From the NCBI GenBank assembly GCA_025936825.1, contig JAICSO010000003.1, forward strand, positions 62,001 to 126,000: DNA of 64,000 nucleotides, in the 5' to 3' direction. Shown here piece by piece: positions 32,887 through 55,956 of the stretch. This DNA comes from Terriglobales bacterium (GTDB lineage: Bacteria; Acidobacteriota; Terriglobia; Terriglobales; Acidobacteriaceae). The notes below the pieces were generated by a model. That model saw nothing but the letters and a program-made list of their open reading frames with translations, ran no database searches and had not been told where the DNA came from. Position 1 is the stretch's first letter. Each line of letters starts with the position of its first letter. Position numbers and translations under genes: made by a program.

Positions 32887-33837
32887 CTAAACCCGCAAAC
32901 GCTCCAGCATCTCCGGGTCAATATTGCCGCCGCTGATCAGGGCAACGGCGGCTTTGGACACCGGTAGCGTGTCGCGGTGGAATAACCAGGCAGCGGGCGC
33001 TACCGCGCCGCTGGGTTCGGCCACGGTCTTGGGATTCCGCGCGAGTGTGCGAACAGCCTCATCAATTTCTGCTTCAGATACGGTCACAACGTCATCCACG
33101 TAGCGGCGTATGTAGTCGAACGTGATCGTCCCGACGTACATGGCGCGCAGACCGTCGGCGGAAGTGGATGCAACTTGCTCTGCAGGCAACTTCACGATCT
33201 GGCCGGCGCGTAGACTCGCCTGCGCATCGGCCGCGAGCTCCGGTTCGACACCGATCACTTTGACGTGAGGCTTGAGCGATTTCACTGCTGTGGCGATGCC
33301 ACTGATCACCCCTCCACCGCCAACAGGAACCAGCACCAGGTCCACATCCGGCAAGTCCTCCACGATCTCCAATCCGAGAGTTCCTTGACCTGCGATGATC
33401 TGCTCGTCGTCATAAGGAGGAATCATCGTGTAGCCGTGCTTGGCCGCGAGTTCCTCCGCCTTGGTCATACGCTCGACTCCGCTTGGTCCTACGTAAACAA
33501 CTTCGGCGCCGAGCGCTTCGGTGGCCTCGCGCTTCACTGCCGGAGCTACACGCGGCATCACAATAACCGCTTTGCTGTTGAGTGCTCGCGCTGCGTAGGC
33601 GACCCCTTGCGCATGATTTCCGCTGGAATACGCAATTACGCCACGGGATCGCTCTTCGGGCGTGAGCGACGCGATCTTGTTGTAAGCCCCGCGAATCTTG
33701 AATGCACCGACGGGCTGGAGGTTCTCCGGTTTCAGGTAAAGCGTGCTTCCGCCGTGCTCAAGCGGAATGAGCGGCGTGCGGATGGCCACACCGGATAGGC
33801 GGTCGCGAGCTTGTTGAATGTCAGAGAGGGTGATCAT
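32887..33837 (-). CDS. Threonine/serine dehydratase-type PLP enzyme
   Basis: This 316-residue fold-type II PLP enzyme has the Schiff-base Lys in GAFKIRGAYNKIASL, the Asn-containing SSGNHAQGVAYAA loop, and the Gly loop VPVGGGGVISG that holds the PLP phosphate. It lacks the C-terminal ACT-like regulatory domain of biosynthetic IlvA, so it fits catabolic threonine dehydratase or serine racemase. AGGGTGATC precedes the ATG region. Serine racemase activity would supply D-Ser for peptidoglycan, but this cannot be decided by sequence reading. Confidence 0.9.
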   Translation of the reverse strand: MITLSDIQQARDRLSGVAIRTPLIPLEHGGSTLYLKPENLQPVGAFKIRGAYNKIASLTPEERSRGVIAYSSGNHAQGVAYAARALNSKAVIVMPRVAPAVKREATEALGAEVVYVGPSGVERMTKAEELAAKHGYTMIPPYDDEQIIAGQGTLGLEIVEDLPDVDLVLVPVGGGGVISGIATAVKSLKPHVKVIGVEPELAADAQASLRAGQIVKLPAEQVASTSADGLRAMYVGTITFDYIRRYVDDVVTVSEAEIDEAVRTLARNPKTVAEPSGAVAPAAWLFHRDTLPVSKAAVALISGGNIDPEMLERLRV

Positions 33838-33903
33838 TGAGATGACCGCGTAGCAACTTTAGAGTTGATGGCTGATCTTCACATCTCAGAACTTTTATAT
33901 CTT

Positions 33904-34015
33904 GTCATTCCGAGAAATGGGCGAAGCGGAATGACGAGGAACCTGTTCCTCCCCTGCTAAAACGGTGCTGCCCCAGAAAAGCAGGTTCCTCGTCGCTGCG
34001 CTTCTCGGAATGACA
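33904..34015. repeat. GTCATTCCGAG hairpin repeat
   Basis: GTCATTCCGAGAAATGGGCG with GAGGAACCTG on the left mirrors CAGGTTCCTCGTCGCTGCGC and CTCGGAATGAC on the right: a 112-bp inverted repeat between two minus-strand genes. A one-armed copy is nested at 10873, and a diverged GTCATCCTGAGCGAAGCG copy is at 53836. Confidence 0.85.
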
Positions 34016-34035
34016 TCGTAAAAGGTCGTGGAGCG

Positions 34036-52536: not shown

Positions 52537-53820
52537 ATGGATAAATTAGTCATTCGCGGCGGCAATCCTCTTCTCGGCACTGTCCGCATCAGCGGTGCAA
52601 AAAATGCCGCGCTGCCGGCAATGGCCGCCGCGCTACTCACGGAAGAGCCGGTCATCCTTGAAAATATTCCCCACGTCCGCGATATCGAGACCACCCGCAA
52701 GCTGCTCTCGGCAATGGGCGCCGAGGTCGAACTCGGATACGGCCGCGCGAAGAACCGCACCACCATCTGCTGCAAGAACCTGAGCTCTCCGGAAGCGTCG
52801 TATGAACTGGTCAAGACGATGCGCGCGTCCACGCTTGTGCTTGGTCCACTAGTCGCACGTTGCGGCCGTGCGCGCGTTTCGCTTCCCGGAGGTTGCGCCA
52901 TTGGCGCGCGTCCCATTGATCTTCACATCAAAGGTCTCGAACGCCTGGGCGCGAAAATCGACCAGCAGCACGGATACGTAGAAGCCTCGGCCGAGCGACT
53001 TAAGGGCGCTGAGATCGTCTTCGACAAGATTACAGTAACTGGCACTGAAGACCTGCTCATGGCGGCAGCGCTCGCTGACGGCGAGACCGTCATGCAGAAT
53101 TGCGCGCGCGAGCCGGAAGTCGCCGATCTCGCTGACCTGCTCAATAAAATGGGCGCAAAGATCGAAGGCGCAGGCACAGCGACGATCCGAATTAAAGGTG
53201 TGCCAAAGCTGAAGGGAGCGAAGCACCGCATCATTCCAGACCGTATTGAAGCGGCAACCTTCATTCTCGCCGGCGCGCTTACGGATGGCGATCTCAACAT
53301 TTCTGGATGCGAGCCGAAGCATCTCGGTGCTTTGCTACAAAAGCTCGAAGAAGTGGGAGTGAAGACGAAGAGCACTCGGGATTCCGTGCGCGTTGAAGGC
53401 AGCAGTGCGCTCAAAGCTGCCGACGTAAACACCGAGGAATATCCTGGCTTCCCAACCGACGTTCAAGCACAGTACATGGCCCTGGCAACACAGGCCGAAG
53501 GCACATCGATCATTACCGAGAACATTTTTGAGAACCGTTTCATGCACGCGCTCGAGATGGTCCGCATGGGCGCGAACATCAAGATCGAAGGCCGCCGCGC
53601 CGTGGTTCGCGGCAAGTCGCAGTTAGGCGGCGCGGCCGTGCTGGCATCTGATCTTCGGGCCTCGGCGTCTCTCGTATTGGCCGCCCTAGTGGCCGAGGGC
53701 GAGACCATCATTGACCGCGTGTACCACATCGACCGTGGCTACGAAAACATTGAGGAGAAGCTGCGCGGCGTGGGTGCCCAGATTCGCAGGATCGGAGAGA
53801 TTCTGCCGAAAAAGCGATGA
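52537..53820 (+). CDS. murA: UDP-N-acetylglucosamine 1-carboxyvinyltransferase
   Basis: This 427-residue enzyme makes the first committed step of peptidoglycan synthesis, adding enolpyruvate from PEP to UDP-GlcNAc. The catalytic Cys is C120 in [18 protein letters not shown] (fosfomycin-sensitive type). The N-terminal [20 protein letters not shown] and the C-terminal [20 protein letters not shown] are typical. The length is normal. Upstream bases include a repeat and no Shine-Dalgarno. It completes a 6-kb block of cell-wall genes. Confidence 0.97.
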
Positions 53821-53835
53821 CTAACATCTGCTCTG

Positions 53836-53922
53836 TCATCCTGAGCGAAGCGAAGGACCTATGCAATCTGTTCGGAAATGCATAGGCCCTTCGGCGGCTA
53901 AAGCCACCTCAGGATGACAAGA
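53836..53922. repeat. GTCATCCTGAGCGAAGCG hairpin repeat
   Basis: GTCATCCTGAGCGAAGCGAA with GGACCTATGCA on the left and TGCATAGGCCC with CTCAGGATGAC on the right. This sequence type is widely seen in other bacterial genomes as an intergenic repeat. It separates the convergent murA and peroxiredoxin genes and could stabilise both mRNA 3' ends. Confidence 0.85.
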
Positions 53923-53936
53923 GTAAGAGACAAACA

Positions 53937-54626
53937 CTACTTTGGTTGTTTCCCCATCCGCAAGTACGGCTTCAGCGTTCTTAACCCTTCGGGAAATTTC
54001 TTCTTCACTTCTTCCTCGGGCATGGCGGCGGGGACGCAAACATCGCCACCGGGTTGCCAGTTCGCCGGAGTTGAAACTCCCGCGCGAGCTGTGAGCTGTA
54101 GCGAATCCAGGATCCGCAAAATCTCCGCGAAGTTACGCCCCGTGCTCATCGGATAAATCAGCATCGTCTTGATCTTCTTATCCGGGCCAATGACAAAGAC
54201 AGTCCGCACGGTGATGTTGTCCGCCGGGGTGCGGCCTTCCGAAGTGCTGCCGGCACTGGCGGGAAGCATGTTGTACAGCTTGGCGATTTCCAGTTTCGGA
54301 TCGCCGATCATCGGATAGTTGACCTTATGCCCTTGCGTCTCCTCAATATCACCAGCCCATTTTCCATGGCTGCTGACGGGATCCACACTCAAACCGATGA
54401 TCTTGGTGTTGCGCTTCTTGAATTCTGGCTCCAGTCCTGCCATGTAGCCGAGCTCGGTGGTGCAGACGGGCGTGAAGTCTTTGGGATGCGAGAACAGAAC
54501 TGCCCATCCGTTCCCGATCCAGTCGTGGAAGTGGATTGTGCCCTGGGTGGTTTCGGCCGTGAAATCGGGCGCTACATCGTTAATGCGAAGCATGGCTGGT
54601 GTGGACTCAAGCGTTGCGGTACTCAT
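53937..54626 (-). CDS. 1-Cys/Prx6-type peroxiredoxin
   Basis: A 229-residue peroxiredoxin of the Prx6 (AhpE-independent, 1-Cys) group that reduces peroxides using thiols. The peroxidatic Cys is C55 in SHPKDFTPVCTTELG, and Arg of the active site is in TVRTVFVIGPDKKIK. A further Cys, C197, lies in the Prx6 C-terminal motif PGGDVCVPAAMPEEE. A strong GGAGGAGAAATC Shine-Dalgarno is at the ATG at 54626; the frame is open beyond, but that part is leader RNA. The leader holds a Cys-rich ORF and a terminator (separate entries), so expression is probably governed by cysteine supply. Confidence 0.95.
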   Translation of the reverse strand: MSTATLESTPAMLRINDVAPDFTAETTQGTIHFHDWIGNGWAVLFSHPKDFTPVCTTELGYMAGLEPEFKKRNTKIIGLSVDPVSSHGKWAGDIEETQGHKVNYPMIGDPKLEIAKLYNMLPASAGSTSEGRTPADNITVRTVFVIGPDKKIKTMLIYPMSTGRNFAEILRILDSLQLTARAGVSTPANWQPGGDVCVPAAMPEEEVKKKFPEGLRTLKPYLRMGKQPK

Positions 54627-54676
54627 GATTTCTCCTCCTTGGAATGTCTGGAAACCCGCCTGACTCGGTTGCGGGC

Positions 54677-54713
54677 AAAAAAACAAAACCCACCCGGATG
54701 GCGCCGGGTGGGT
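54677..54713 (-). terminator. Intrinsic terminator/attenuator in the peroxiredoxin leader
   Basis: On the minus strand ACCCACCCGG (54713-54704) pairs perfectly with CCGGGTGGGT (54697-54688) across the loop CGCCAT, and is followed by TTTTGTTTTTTT. It ends 51 nt before the peroxiredoxin start, where no upstream gene on that strand needs a terminator. An alternative pairing, GUGGGU at 54735-54730 with ACCCAC at 54713-54708, would prevent it from forming. Confidence 0.85.
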
Positions 54714-54727
54714 CGGAAACCTTCTGC

Positions 54728-54787
54728 TTACCCACAGACCGGCGCGCGAGTACAACAACAGCAGCACGGCATGCAGAAAGCTCGCAT
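54728..54787 (-). CDS. Cysteine-rich leader peptide (19 aa) of the peroxiredoxin attenuator
   Basis: The minus-strand frame ATG (54787-54785) to TAA (54730-54728) reads MRAFCMPCCCCCTRAPVCG: 7 Cys in 19 residues, with five consecutive Cys codons at 54766-54752. A second in-frame ATG is at 54772. The first ATG is only 6 nt after the -10 TATCCT, so the ORF may be leaderless, as I recall for mycobacterial polycysteine leader ORFs. Its stop codon lies 14 nt before the terminator stem, and its last two codons contain the GUGGGU that can form an antiterminator. Translation stalled at Cys codons should therefore permit read-through into the peroxiredoxin gene. Confidence 0.8.
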   Translation of the reverse strand: MRAFCMPCCCCCTRAPVCG

Positions 54788-54793
54788 GCCGAT

Positions 54794-54822
54794 AGGATAC
54801 GCAGGGCAGAATTCGACGTCAA
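54794..54822 (-). promoter_or_regulatory. Sigma70-type promoter of the peroxiredoxin leader
   Basis: On the minus strand TTGACG (54822-54817) is followed after exactly 17 bp by TATCCT (54799-54794). The expected start of transcription is at about 54787, the first base of the leader ORF's ATG. Confidence 0.65.
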
Positions 54823-54859
54823 ACCCGCTACTAGTTCCCGTCGGACAAAACCAAAACCT

Positions 54860-54998
54860 TTACCACAGAGGACACAGAGGCACACAGAGGAACGCCACAA
54901 AGGAAACGTGGAAGAAGGGAGCGGAGGACGTTGGCCTCTTTGCTCTTGGCCTTCCTCTCTGTTTTTCTCCGTGAGCTCTGTGCCCTCCGTGGTAAAAA
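54860..54998. repeat. CACAGAG-type hairpin repeat
   Basis: ACCACAGAGGACACAGAGGC units on the left are complemented by CTCTGTGCCCTCCGTGGTAA at the right, around an 80-bp spacer. It belongs to the CACGGAG family. Read on the plus strand it makes the phzF frame appear to start at 54931. Confidence 0.75.
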
Positions 54999-55062
54999 TT
55001 TTGATTTCCCTTGCGCCCGTAAATTCCTGCACCTTTGTACCTGTCTCGCCAATCCAATCCGC

Positions 55063-55956
55063 ATGGTAGGCCAGGCACGCAAGTTCGCGTTTACCCAGTT
55101 TGATGTCTTCACTTCCAAGCCACTGGAAGGCAATCCCCTCGCCGTCGTGCACGACGCCACAGGCTTGGACGACTCCGAGATGCAGGCCATTGCCCGCGAG
55201 ATGAACCTCTCGGAGACGACTTTTATCTTTCCCCGAGACAAAGGTTCGGAGAGCGAGCGCGGCGTTCGTGTGCGCATCTTCACGGTGCAGGAGGAACTCC
55301 CTTTTGCCGGACATCCCACGCTCGGCACTGCGTTTTTCCTCCGCGGAAACTCTGGCGCAAGTGAGGTTAAGCTCGACCTCAATGTTGGAACCATTCCGGT
55401 GAAGTTCGAAGAACGCGCTGGCGAATCTGTCTTCGGCGAGATGACCCAATGCGATCCGGAGTTCGGCATGATTCACGATCGCAAAAAAATTGCCGAAGTC
55501 AGCGGCATCCCTGCAGAAGATATTTCCGAGGATGCTCCGATCCAGACCGTTTCGACCGGGACTCCGTTCACCATGGTTCCATTGCGCTCTCTGGAGGCGG
55601 CGCGCCGCTTGCAAATCAACCAACAACGCTCCGCGGAGTATCTCCAAGGCACTGGCGGGAAATTTTTCTTCTGTGTCACGCGGGAGACTGTTGACTCCTC
55701 GGCGCGCGTTCATGCGCGCATGCTTTTCTATAACGGCGAAGATCCCGCGACCGGTTCGGCATCCGGTTGCTGCGCCGCATGGATGGTCCAACATGGAATT
55801 GCGCGGCCTGACGAGCGAGTCATGATCGAGCAGGGCGTCGAGATGAAGCGTCCCAGCCGAATTTTTGTTCGTGCCTCTCGCAGCAATGACAGAGTGGTTA
55901 ATGTACGGGTCGGTGGAAATGTTGTTGAAGTTTTGCGCGGGGAATTTTTTTTCTGA
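55063..55956 (+). CDS. PhzF-family isomerase-like protein
   Basis: This 297-residue protein has the PhzF/YddE two-lobe fold: FTQFDVFTSKPLEGNPLAVV at the N-terminus, the catalytic Glu in AREMNLSETTFIF, LPFAGHPTLGTAFFL, and the C-terminal DPATGSASGCCAAWMVQHG. PhzF itself isomerises DHHA in phenazine synthesis, but no other phz gene is near, and most family members have unknown substrates. ATG at 55063 is chosen because the 44 upstream codons lie in a CACAGAG repeat. Divergent from the peroxiredoxin leader. Confidence 0.9.
   Translation: MVGQARKFAFTQFDVFTSKPLEGNPLAVVHDATGLDDSEMQAIAREMNLSETTFIFPRDKGSESERGVRVRIFTVQEELPFAGHPTLGTAFFLRGNSGASEVKLDLNVGTIPVKFEERAGESVFGEMTQCDPEFGMIHDRKKIAEVSGIPAEDISEDAPIQTVSTGTPFTMVPLRSLEAARRLQINQQRSAEYLQGTGGKFFFCVTRETVDSSARVHARMLFYNGEDPATGSASGCCAAWMVQHGIARPDERVMIEQGVEMKRPSRIFVRASRSNDRVVNVRVGGNVVEVLRGEFFF

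Follow-up and report, generated by a model that had tools for sequence, protein, structure and literature searches.

The window analysed here, 64,000 nucleotides of a contig from a Terriglobales bacterium, carries on its minus strand a gene for a 1-Cys (Prx6-type) peroxiredoxin (Prx), preceded by a promoter, a short cysteine-rich open reading frame and an intrinsic terminator (Table 1). The leader ORF, MRAFCMPCCCCCTRAPVCG, is 19 codons long from its ATG at 54787 and encodes seven cysteines, five of them in a row. On re-reading the sequence we found the promoter (TTGACG-17 bp-TATCCT), the 6-nt gap and the 19-codon, 7-Cys ORF that an initial annotation had described, all at the positions claimed. 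The Shine-Dalgarno sequence and Prx6-type start that it had placed further downstream were likewise present (AGGAGG, 54639-54634; ATG, 54626), and the gene product matched Prx domains. The terminator and its T-tract stood as well, with two corrections: the stem has 11 pairs (8 of them G-C) rather than 10, and begins 13 rather than 14 nt past the leader stop codon. The guess that the DNA came from an acidobacterium agrees with the nearest named relatives of the Prx, which come from Acidobacteriota metagenome genomes and reach at most 78% identity.

Table 1. Features of the peroxiredoxin locus of the window
Feature	Position	Strand	Basis or remark
-35 element TTGACG	54817..54822	(-)	consensus match
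-10 element TATCCT	54794..54799	(-)	6 nt upstream of leader ATG; predicted leaderless start
Leader ORF MRAFCMPCCCCCTRAPVCG	54728..54787	(-)	conserved in homologous loci
Five consecutive Cys codons TGC TGC TGT TGT TGT	54752..54766	(-)	proposed stall site
Antiterminator 5' arm, upper part GCGCCGG	54739..54745	(-)	fold calculation
Antiterminator 5' arm, lower part GUGGGU	54730..54735	(-)	leader ORF 3' end
Antiterminator 3' arm ACCCACCCGGCGC	54701..54713	(-)	overlaps terminator 5' arm
Intrinsic terminator hairpin, 11 bp	54687..54714	(-)	sequence and fold calculation
T-tract TTGTTTTTTT	54677..54686	(-)	terminator tail
Shine-Dalgarno AGGAGG of peroxiredoxin gene	54634..54639	(-)	sequence
1-Cys (Prx6-type) peroxiredoxin gene, 229 aa	53937..54626	(-)	AhpC-TSA and 1-cysPrx_C domains

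No Rfam family (T-box, SAM or other riboregulators) reached its gathering score within 54500-54900 of the window; the only matches were to sRNAs below threshold and were rejected (Hrs10, 23.2 bits against 108; anti-hemB, 15.8 against 49.5). The minimum-energy fold shows a 5' helix. Upstream of the promoter, at 54860-54985, lie imperfect repeats of the ACAGAGG type, and tracts resembling them, as judged by eye, adjoin some homologous loci (L112, L114). A PhzF-family gene at 54931-55956 is divergent from the Prx gene; a similar-looking gene adjoins the Prx of genome G147 (L112).

A predicted switch in the leader RNA

The initial annotation had proposed that GUGGGU in the last leader codons (54735-54730) pairs with ACCCAC in the first terminator arm (54713-54708). 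This pairing can form, but its extent was underestimated, since it is only half of the full alternative pairing: by fold calculation, GCGCCGG at 54745-54739 can also pair with CCGGCGC at 54707-54701. The full antiterminator, about twice as long as had been stated, has 13 bp and a 3-nt bulge and a computed energy of -21.6 kcal/mol, against -21.3 kcal/mol for the terminator hairpin. Compared with shuffled segments, its duplex stands at a fraction of 0.010.

We then masked the part of the RNA covered by the ribosome, which was taken to shield 12 nt from the first base of the A-site. With the A-site at Cys8-Cys11, and before the terminator 3' arm is made, the antiterminator folds at -24.4 to -24.7 kcal/mol; at Cys12 the value is -14.8 kcal/mol, and with the ribosome at the leader stop codon it reaches only -1.7 kcal/mol. 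When the whole hairpin is available and the ribosome is stalled, the terminator form wins at equilibrium (-30.5 versus -24.7 kcal/mol). A stalled ribosome alone thus does not reverse the order of stability, and the switch depends on timing during transcription.

Conservation upstream of peroxiredoxin genes

We collected the upstream regions of 159 Prx loci, none shorter than 250 nt: 83 from the same family and 76 from named loci. Prx was present in 83 of the 150 same-family genomes searched; from the 86 rows that the family search returned, G448:C184 (contig edge) and G476:C44 (partial) were excluded from the count, and L039, L050, L058, L093 and L158 were excluded for having less than 250 nt upstream. 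A strict filter required an ORF of at most 35 codons with 15% Cys and a -10-like element 4-8 nt upstream, a relaxed one an ORF of at most 40 codons containing CC.C or C.CC. Leaders were found at 33 of the 159 loci by the strict filter, at 49 by the relaxed one and at 54 by either, against 0-1, 0-3 and 0-5, respectively, in 20 dinucleotide shuffles; the reverse strand gave 1. For the 83 family regions alone, shuffling ten times produced 0-3 leaders. The initial annotation would have been refuted had homologous loci kept neither the Cys run nor the terminator; 49 of the 83 family loci have the leader (29 strict and 20 relaxed only, with L174 doubtful), and 50 of the 52 leaders read in detail have a terminator by hairpin finder. 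Six of the 34 family loci that failed the filter have weaker CC leaders matched by the covariance model R1 (see below). Among named loci, the leader occurs in 5 of the 23 classed as Acidobacteriota from their record titles (L037, L044, L045, L049, L072) and, with the same filters, in none of the 53 from other phyla.

The detailed set leaves out L142, whose leader is identical to that of L044, and the doubtful L174; in a few leaders, for example L177, the hairpin finder picked a hairpin other than the conserved one. At 37 of the 52 leaders the start codon lies 3-10 nt downstream of the -10 element of a TTGA/TANNNT pair; the commonest gap is 6 nt (15 cases), and no pair with such spacing was found at the other 15. 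Cysteine is encoded by TGT 153 times and by TGC 147 times, so the amino acid is kept while the codon varies. The leaders fall into two types, CCC..[AT]P.CG-stop (the window type) and MCMCCCC..RV-stop. When 399 class genomes were scanned with a stringent pattern for the window-type switch, 4 matched, and every match lay upstream of a Prx gene.

Some copies depart from this scheme. The hairpin finder detected no terminator downstream of the Cys leader in L138 and L144; their sequences suggest that the leader was retained and the terminator eroded or lost, which would leave Prx expression unregulated. L141 and L149 have a premature in-frame stop soon after CCC, and the later antiterminator-like sequence and the terminator remain. 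The early stop would leave the antiterminator uncovered, and such leaders should therefore not switch normally; from their sequences they look like altered or decaying copies. At L127 (G251:C4:50841-51509) one TGA is reported inside the Prx reading frame.

Poly-Cys leaders upstream of sulfur genes

The genome of the window has three such leaders: that of Prx, L309 and L344. L309 (G000:C34), whose leader MNASRKSCCQCCFCCCPCLHTGMRKLLT is followed by a terminator, lies before CysG-type, methyltransferase and CysH-like genes; same-genus homologues of these genes, at L312, matched Pfam NAD_binding_7/Sirohm_synth_M, TP_methylase and PAPS_reduct. The L344 leader, MAMLKTCTQKLMACCCCACCVPSGDGE, precedes a gene with a NIR_SIR domain (sulfite/nitrite-reductase-type, hereafter Sir-type). 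The L309 promoter (TTGACA, 18 bp, TACGAT, 11 nt to the leader ATG, with a second ATG upstream in frame) reads less clearly than that of the Prx leader, and we claim no leaderless start for it. In the L312 genome a gene that by eye resembles a LysR-type regulator follows CysH (33132-34020); a transcription factor may act alongside attenuation.

Sir-type genes were found in 59 of 100 genomes searched. A poly-Cys leader lies within 900 nt upstream in 26 of the 30 best Sir-type loci (ten shuffles, 0-4; reverse strand, 2), and L255, scored as a miss, has a match to the second model, R2, directly upstream. The Sir-type proteins score below the curated NCBIfam cut-offs for sulfite and nitrite reductase alike; we prefer sulfite reductase because of the Cys leaders and the nearby CysH genes. 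CysH itself was rejected as the usual direct target: among the 30 best CysH loci an adjacent poly-Cys leader was seen only at L279, the query's own, and the three filter hits in the other 29 (L282, L299, L303) were judged to be chance.

R1, built from 23 window-type Prx leaders, matched 49 of 150 family genomes at E ≤ 0.01. Its best 30 loci all lie upstream of Prx, 26 of this subfamily and 4 of a second one; 19 are training sequences and 11 are new, although the G411 leader is identical to that of L044, used in training. We examined 50 of the 51 family matches, reading twenty of the 21 beyond the best 30. These lower matches lie upstream of second-subfamily Prx (L229, L230, L232, L233), sulfurtransferase (L231), CysH (L234) and NirA/Sir-type genes (L239, and L237 by likeness), the genes being named by family search only where tested. 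L235, L236, L238, L240 and L241 were rejected as weak, partial matches to the terminator region without a Cys leader. Across the class, R1 matched 9 of 299 genomes: six from the family, two from another family, before genes resembling the Sir-type gene of L344, and G199, where the match is at a contig end and the downstream gene beyond view.

That the window holds a mere chance run of Cys codons beside an ordinary terminator is scarcely credible. Four TGY codons in succession do match 91 times in its genome (50 for the reversed control pattern), but the shuffle and reverse-strand controls contradict coincidence, as do the near-universal terminators of the detailed set (50/52) and the spread of R1 matches over 35 of the 79 sampled genera of the family.

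R2, built from 19 Sir-type and two CysG-operon leaders, matched 73 of 150 family genomes, a number in which weak and reverse-strand terminator matches are counted. Among its best 30 loci, 29 lie upstream of Sir or CysG genes and the 30th upstream of a Sir match; 19 are training sequences, and most top matches of both models are sequences used to build them. The R2 lists are longer than what was examined (50 family and 20 class matches). Among 20 further family loci, which were chosen, 17 have a Cys leader: nine before Sir-type genes, three before CysK (L356-L358), and the others before CysG (L360), a sulfonate-binding protein (SsuA, L361), a rhodanese-domain gene (L351, by likeness), a carbonic anhydrase (L354) and an unclear gene (L359); not all of these genes were confirmed by family search. 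L349, L350 and L352 were rejected, having no Cys leader. Two of these matches, L349 (G448:C44:11382-11479) and L350 (G245:C1:307211-307306), lie before aspartokinase-like genes. The short ORF before the L349 gene has Thr and Ile codons and no Cys codons; by its sequence it could be an attenuator of the threonine type, its terminator resembling those of the Cys leaders.

Across the class, R2 matched 76 of 299 genomes at E ≤ 1e-6. All 20 chosen class loci, 19 of them outside the family, have a Cys-containing leader; the model favours this outcome, and the informative part is the downstream gene. These genes encode sulfurtransferases (five), a rhodanese-domain protein (one), Sir-type proteins (five), CysD (L368), a sulfate-binding protein (L370), TauE/SafE permeases (L374 and L381; L382 and L383 by eye) and three large proteins. 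Two of the last, at L366 and L367 (and, by likeness, the gene at L364), are outer-membrane types, with CarboxypepD_reg-barrel and porin features; it is possible that they serve the uptake of sulfur compounds. The gene kinds matched without having been in training are thus sulfurtransferase, CysH and Sir for R1, and CysK, SsuA, CysD, sulfate-binding protein, TauE and sulfurtransferases for R2.

The signal could in principle be other than charged tRNA: the nascent poly-Cys peptide might itself stall the ribosome through metal binding or thiol oxidation, and the gene would then answer to a metal or an oxidant. A peroxiredoxin downstream, and the suitability of poly-Cys chemistry for metals and oxidants, would fit such a sensor. 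We nevertheless consider it improbable, for the residues flanking the Cys run vary between leader types while the Cys codons stay, and leaders before CysK, CysD, sulfate-binding-protein and Sir-type genes fit cysteine supply better. Cys-tRNA is most likely the signal, because R1 and R2 found similar leaders before other genes of cysteine and sulfate assimilation. The leader before the CysG-CysH genes adds support.

Antiterminator pairing across leader types

The pairing analysis covered 76 leaders: 25 of window-type Prx, 25 of second-type Prx and 26 of Sir/CysG type. L138 and L144 were excluded for want of a terminator, which left 50 Prx leaders; from 26 Sir leaders L265 and L271 were dropped, and L309 and L312 were added. 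The segment after the Cys run was paired with the terminator 5' arm and compared with shuffled segments. Mean duplex energies were -21.8 versus -15.0 kcal/mol when shuffled for the window type (18 of 25 leaders at a fraction ≤0.05), -18.6 versus -12.6 kcal/mol for the second type (16 of 25) and -20.2 versus -13.7 kcal/mol for the Sir/CysG type (22 of 26), that is, 56 of 76 overall. The antiterminators of L196, L197, L277 and L278 were no better than chance in this comparison. Arms exchanged between types pair worse; Sir-type leaders, for instance, average -20.2 kcal/mol with their own arm and -15.6 with window-type arms. In the masking calculation, the terminator arm was paired upstream, over at least 8 nt, in 74 of 76 leaders with the ribosome stalled and in 1 of 76 with it at the stop codon, but by number of paired bases only 12 of the 76 beat shuffled sequence at 0.05.

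Of the antiterminator cells in the window-type alignment, 88.5% pair; sliding the alignment lowers this to 40-46%. No two-sided compensatory change was found there, and this alignment gives no covariation support; the conservation sought among Prx relatives after the initial annotation was thus met for Cys codons and terminators but not for covariation of the Prx-type antiterminator. In the Sir-type alignments, one or both of which omit L251, L252, L262, L277 and L278, 87.1% of cells pair, and two pairs change on both sides (10 cells); the covariation score is reached by 11 of 500 shuffles. Covariation support in the Sir-type antiterminator is modest.

These pairings also bear on whether the leader controls Prx at all. 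It might simply encode a small protein and end in a terminator of its own, with Prx transcribed from a separate promoter downstream; short Cys-rich proteins exist, and the ~37 nt between the T-tract and the Shine-Dalgarno sequence has space for part of a promoter. This arrangement is very unlikely, as a consensus scan of 53800-55100 for sigma-70-like sites returned the leader promoter alone, and in most leaders the 3' end of the ORF pairs with the terminator arm.

Discussion

We conclude, with high though not complete confidence, that the window leader is a transcription attenuator, mediated by the ribosome and sensing charged tRNA-Cys, and that Prx belongs to a cysteine-attenuation regulon. 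The analysis itself shows the sequence elements and that they are conserved, their potential to pair, and the similar leaders before sulfur genes. Such an attenuator calls for a short leader ORF rich in the regulatory codon, which sequence and conservation provide; for an intrinsic terminator between leader and gene, which the sequence provides; and for an exclusive antiterminator exposed by a stalled ribosome, which is met only by overlap and energy calculation. The attenuator reading of the initial annotation is largely supported by the leaders, the terminators and a computed switch; it is qualified by the antiterminator length, by the lack of Prx-type covariation and by the 34 of 83 family loci that fail the leader filter.

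Under this reading, transcription would begin at or beside the leader start codon and a ribosome would load on the leaderless message. With ample Cys-tRNA it would reach the stop codon and cover both 5' antiterminator segments, and the terminator hairpin and T-tract would end transcription before the Prx gene. With scarce Cys-tRNA it would stall in the Cys run; the antiterminator (54745-54730/54713-54701) could then form ahead of synthesis of the terminator 3' arm, and RNA polymerase would read on. Transcript start, leader translation, stalling, termination and the cysteine response are inferred only, there being no expression or ribosome-profiling data. L141 and L149 offer natural tests of whether the position of the ribosome at the stop matters.

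Prx seems to be part of the cysteine-attenuation regulon. Why it should have joined is inference: a cell short of cysteine is also short of thiol buffering, and peroxide may deplete cysteine or make the cognate tRNA synthetase less active. A broader proposal is that the class runs much of its cysteine regulon by poly-Cys attenuators, and not mainly by a transcription factor, with the Prx branch serving as a thiol-redox sensor: peroxide would drain cysteine or inactivate its tRNA synthetase, Cys-tRNA would fall, the ribosome would stall and the peroxidase would be made. We offer this only tentatively, and would at present sooner doubt than assert it.

On this reading, cysteine attenuation reaches a phylum new to it, where the predicted terminator/antiterminator switch is complete, and an antioxidant enzyme is tied to cysteine supply. 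Amino-acid sensing and peroxide defence would thereby be linked, in a way open to direct test, in soil bacteria that have been little studied. The results also point to a cysteine regulon of several genes; the attenuators of this phylum are described, in the accessible part of PMC2965389, as mostly without assigned function. In the literature available to us, with subscription papers mostly outside its coverage, we found no acidobacterial case of cysteine attenuation and no peroxiredoxin under such control.

Comparison with known systems

The PBC-28-3 motif, which precedes AhpC-like genes, resembles the window leader in being a candidate cis-regulatory RNA before a peroxiredoxin. According to the accessible part of PMC8632094, it is a long covarying stem next to the start codon, thought to bind protein, and no uORF is described for it there, unlike the window leader. 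The same source, again in its accessible part, predicts the uORFC-8-2 motif before cysS in Rhodobacterales, which shares with our leaders a uORF with tandem Cys codons, an intrinsic terminator and predicted read-through at low Cys-tRNA, but is described with a single target, two conserved Cys codons and a different structure, and without mention there of a leaderless start. The acidobacterial leaders do not qualify as members, since they precede Prx and sulfur genes and not cysS in Rhodobacterales.

Classical trp, his and leu attenuators combine stall codons with mutually exclusive antiterminator and terminator. The window leader shares both features, and differs in its start codon, predicted to lie at the 5' end, in its Cys codons and in its antioxidant-enzyme target.

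In mycobacteria, cysteine-responsive attenuators made of polycysteine leaderless sORFs have reportedly been described by Canestrari et al. in 2020. Like them, the window leader is a short ORF with contiguous Cys codons; in both cases such ORFs lie upstream of sulfur-related genes. The mycobacterial sORFs have a leaderless start, for which the window leader offers promoter geometry only (ATG 6 nt after the -10 element). A forerunner on these sORFs is Shell et al. 2015 (PMC4633059, accessible in part), and the portion of PMC9031893 at hand describes the mycobacterial case as regulation of translation. Predicted Cys leaders in Actinobacteria had no conserved terminator hairpins, according to the available part of PMC1262725. 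Unlike the mycobacterial case, the window leader has an intrinsic terminator and an antiterminator, belongs to Acidobacteriota and has a peroxiredoxin as its target. As far as these partly accessible sources allow, we therefore regard the window leader as working like the mycobacterial polycysteine attenuators but, because of its terminator, do not class it as one of them.
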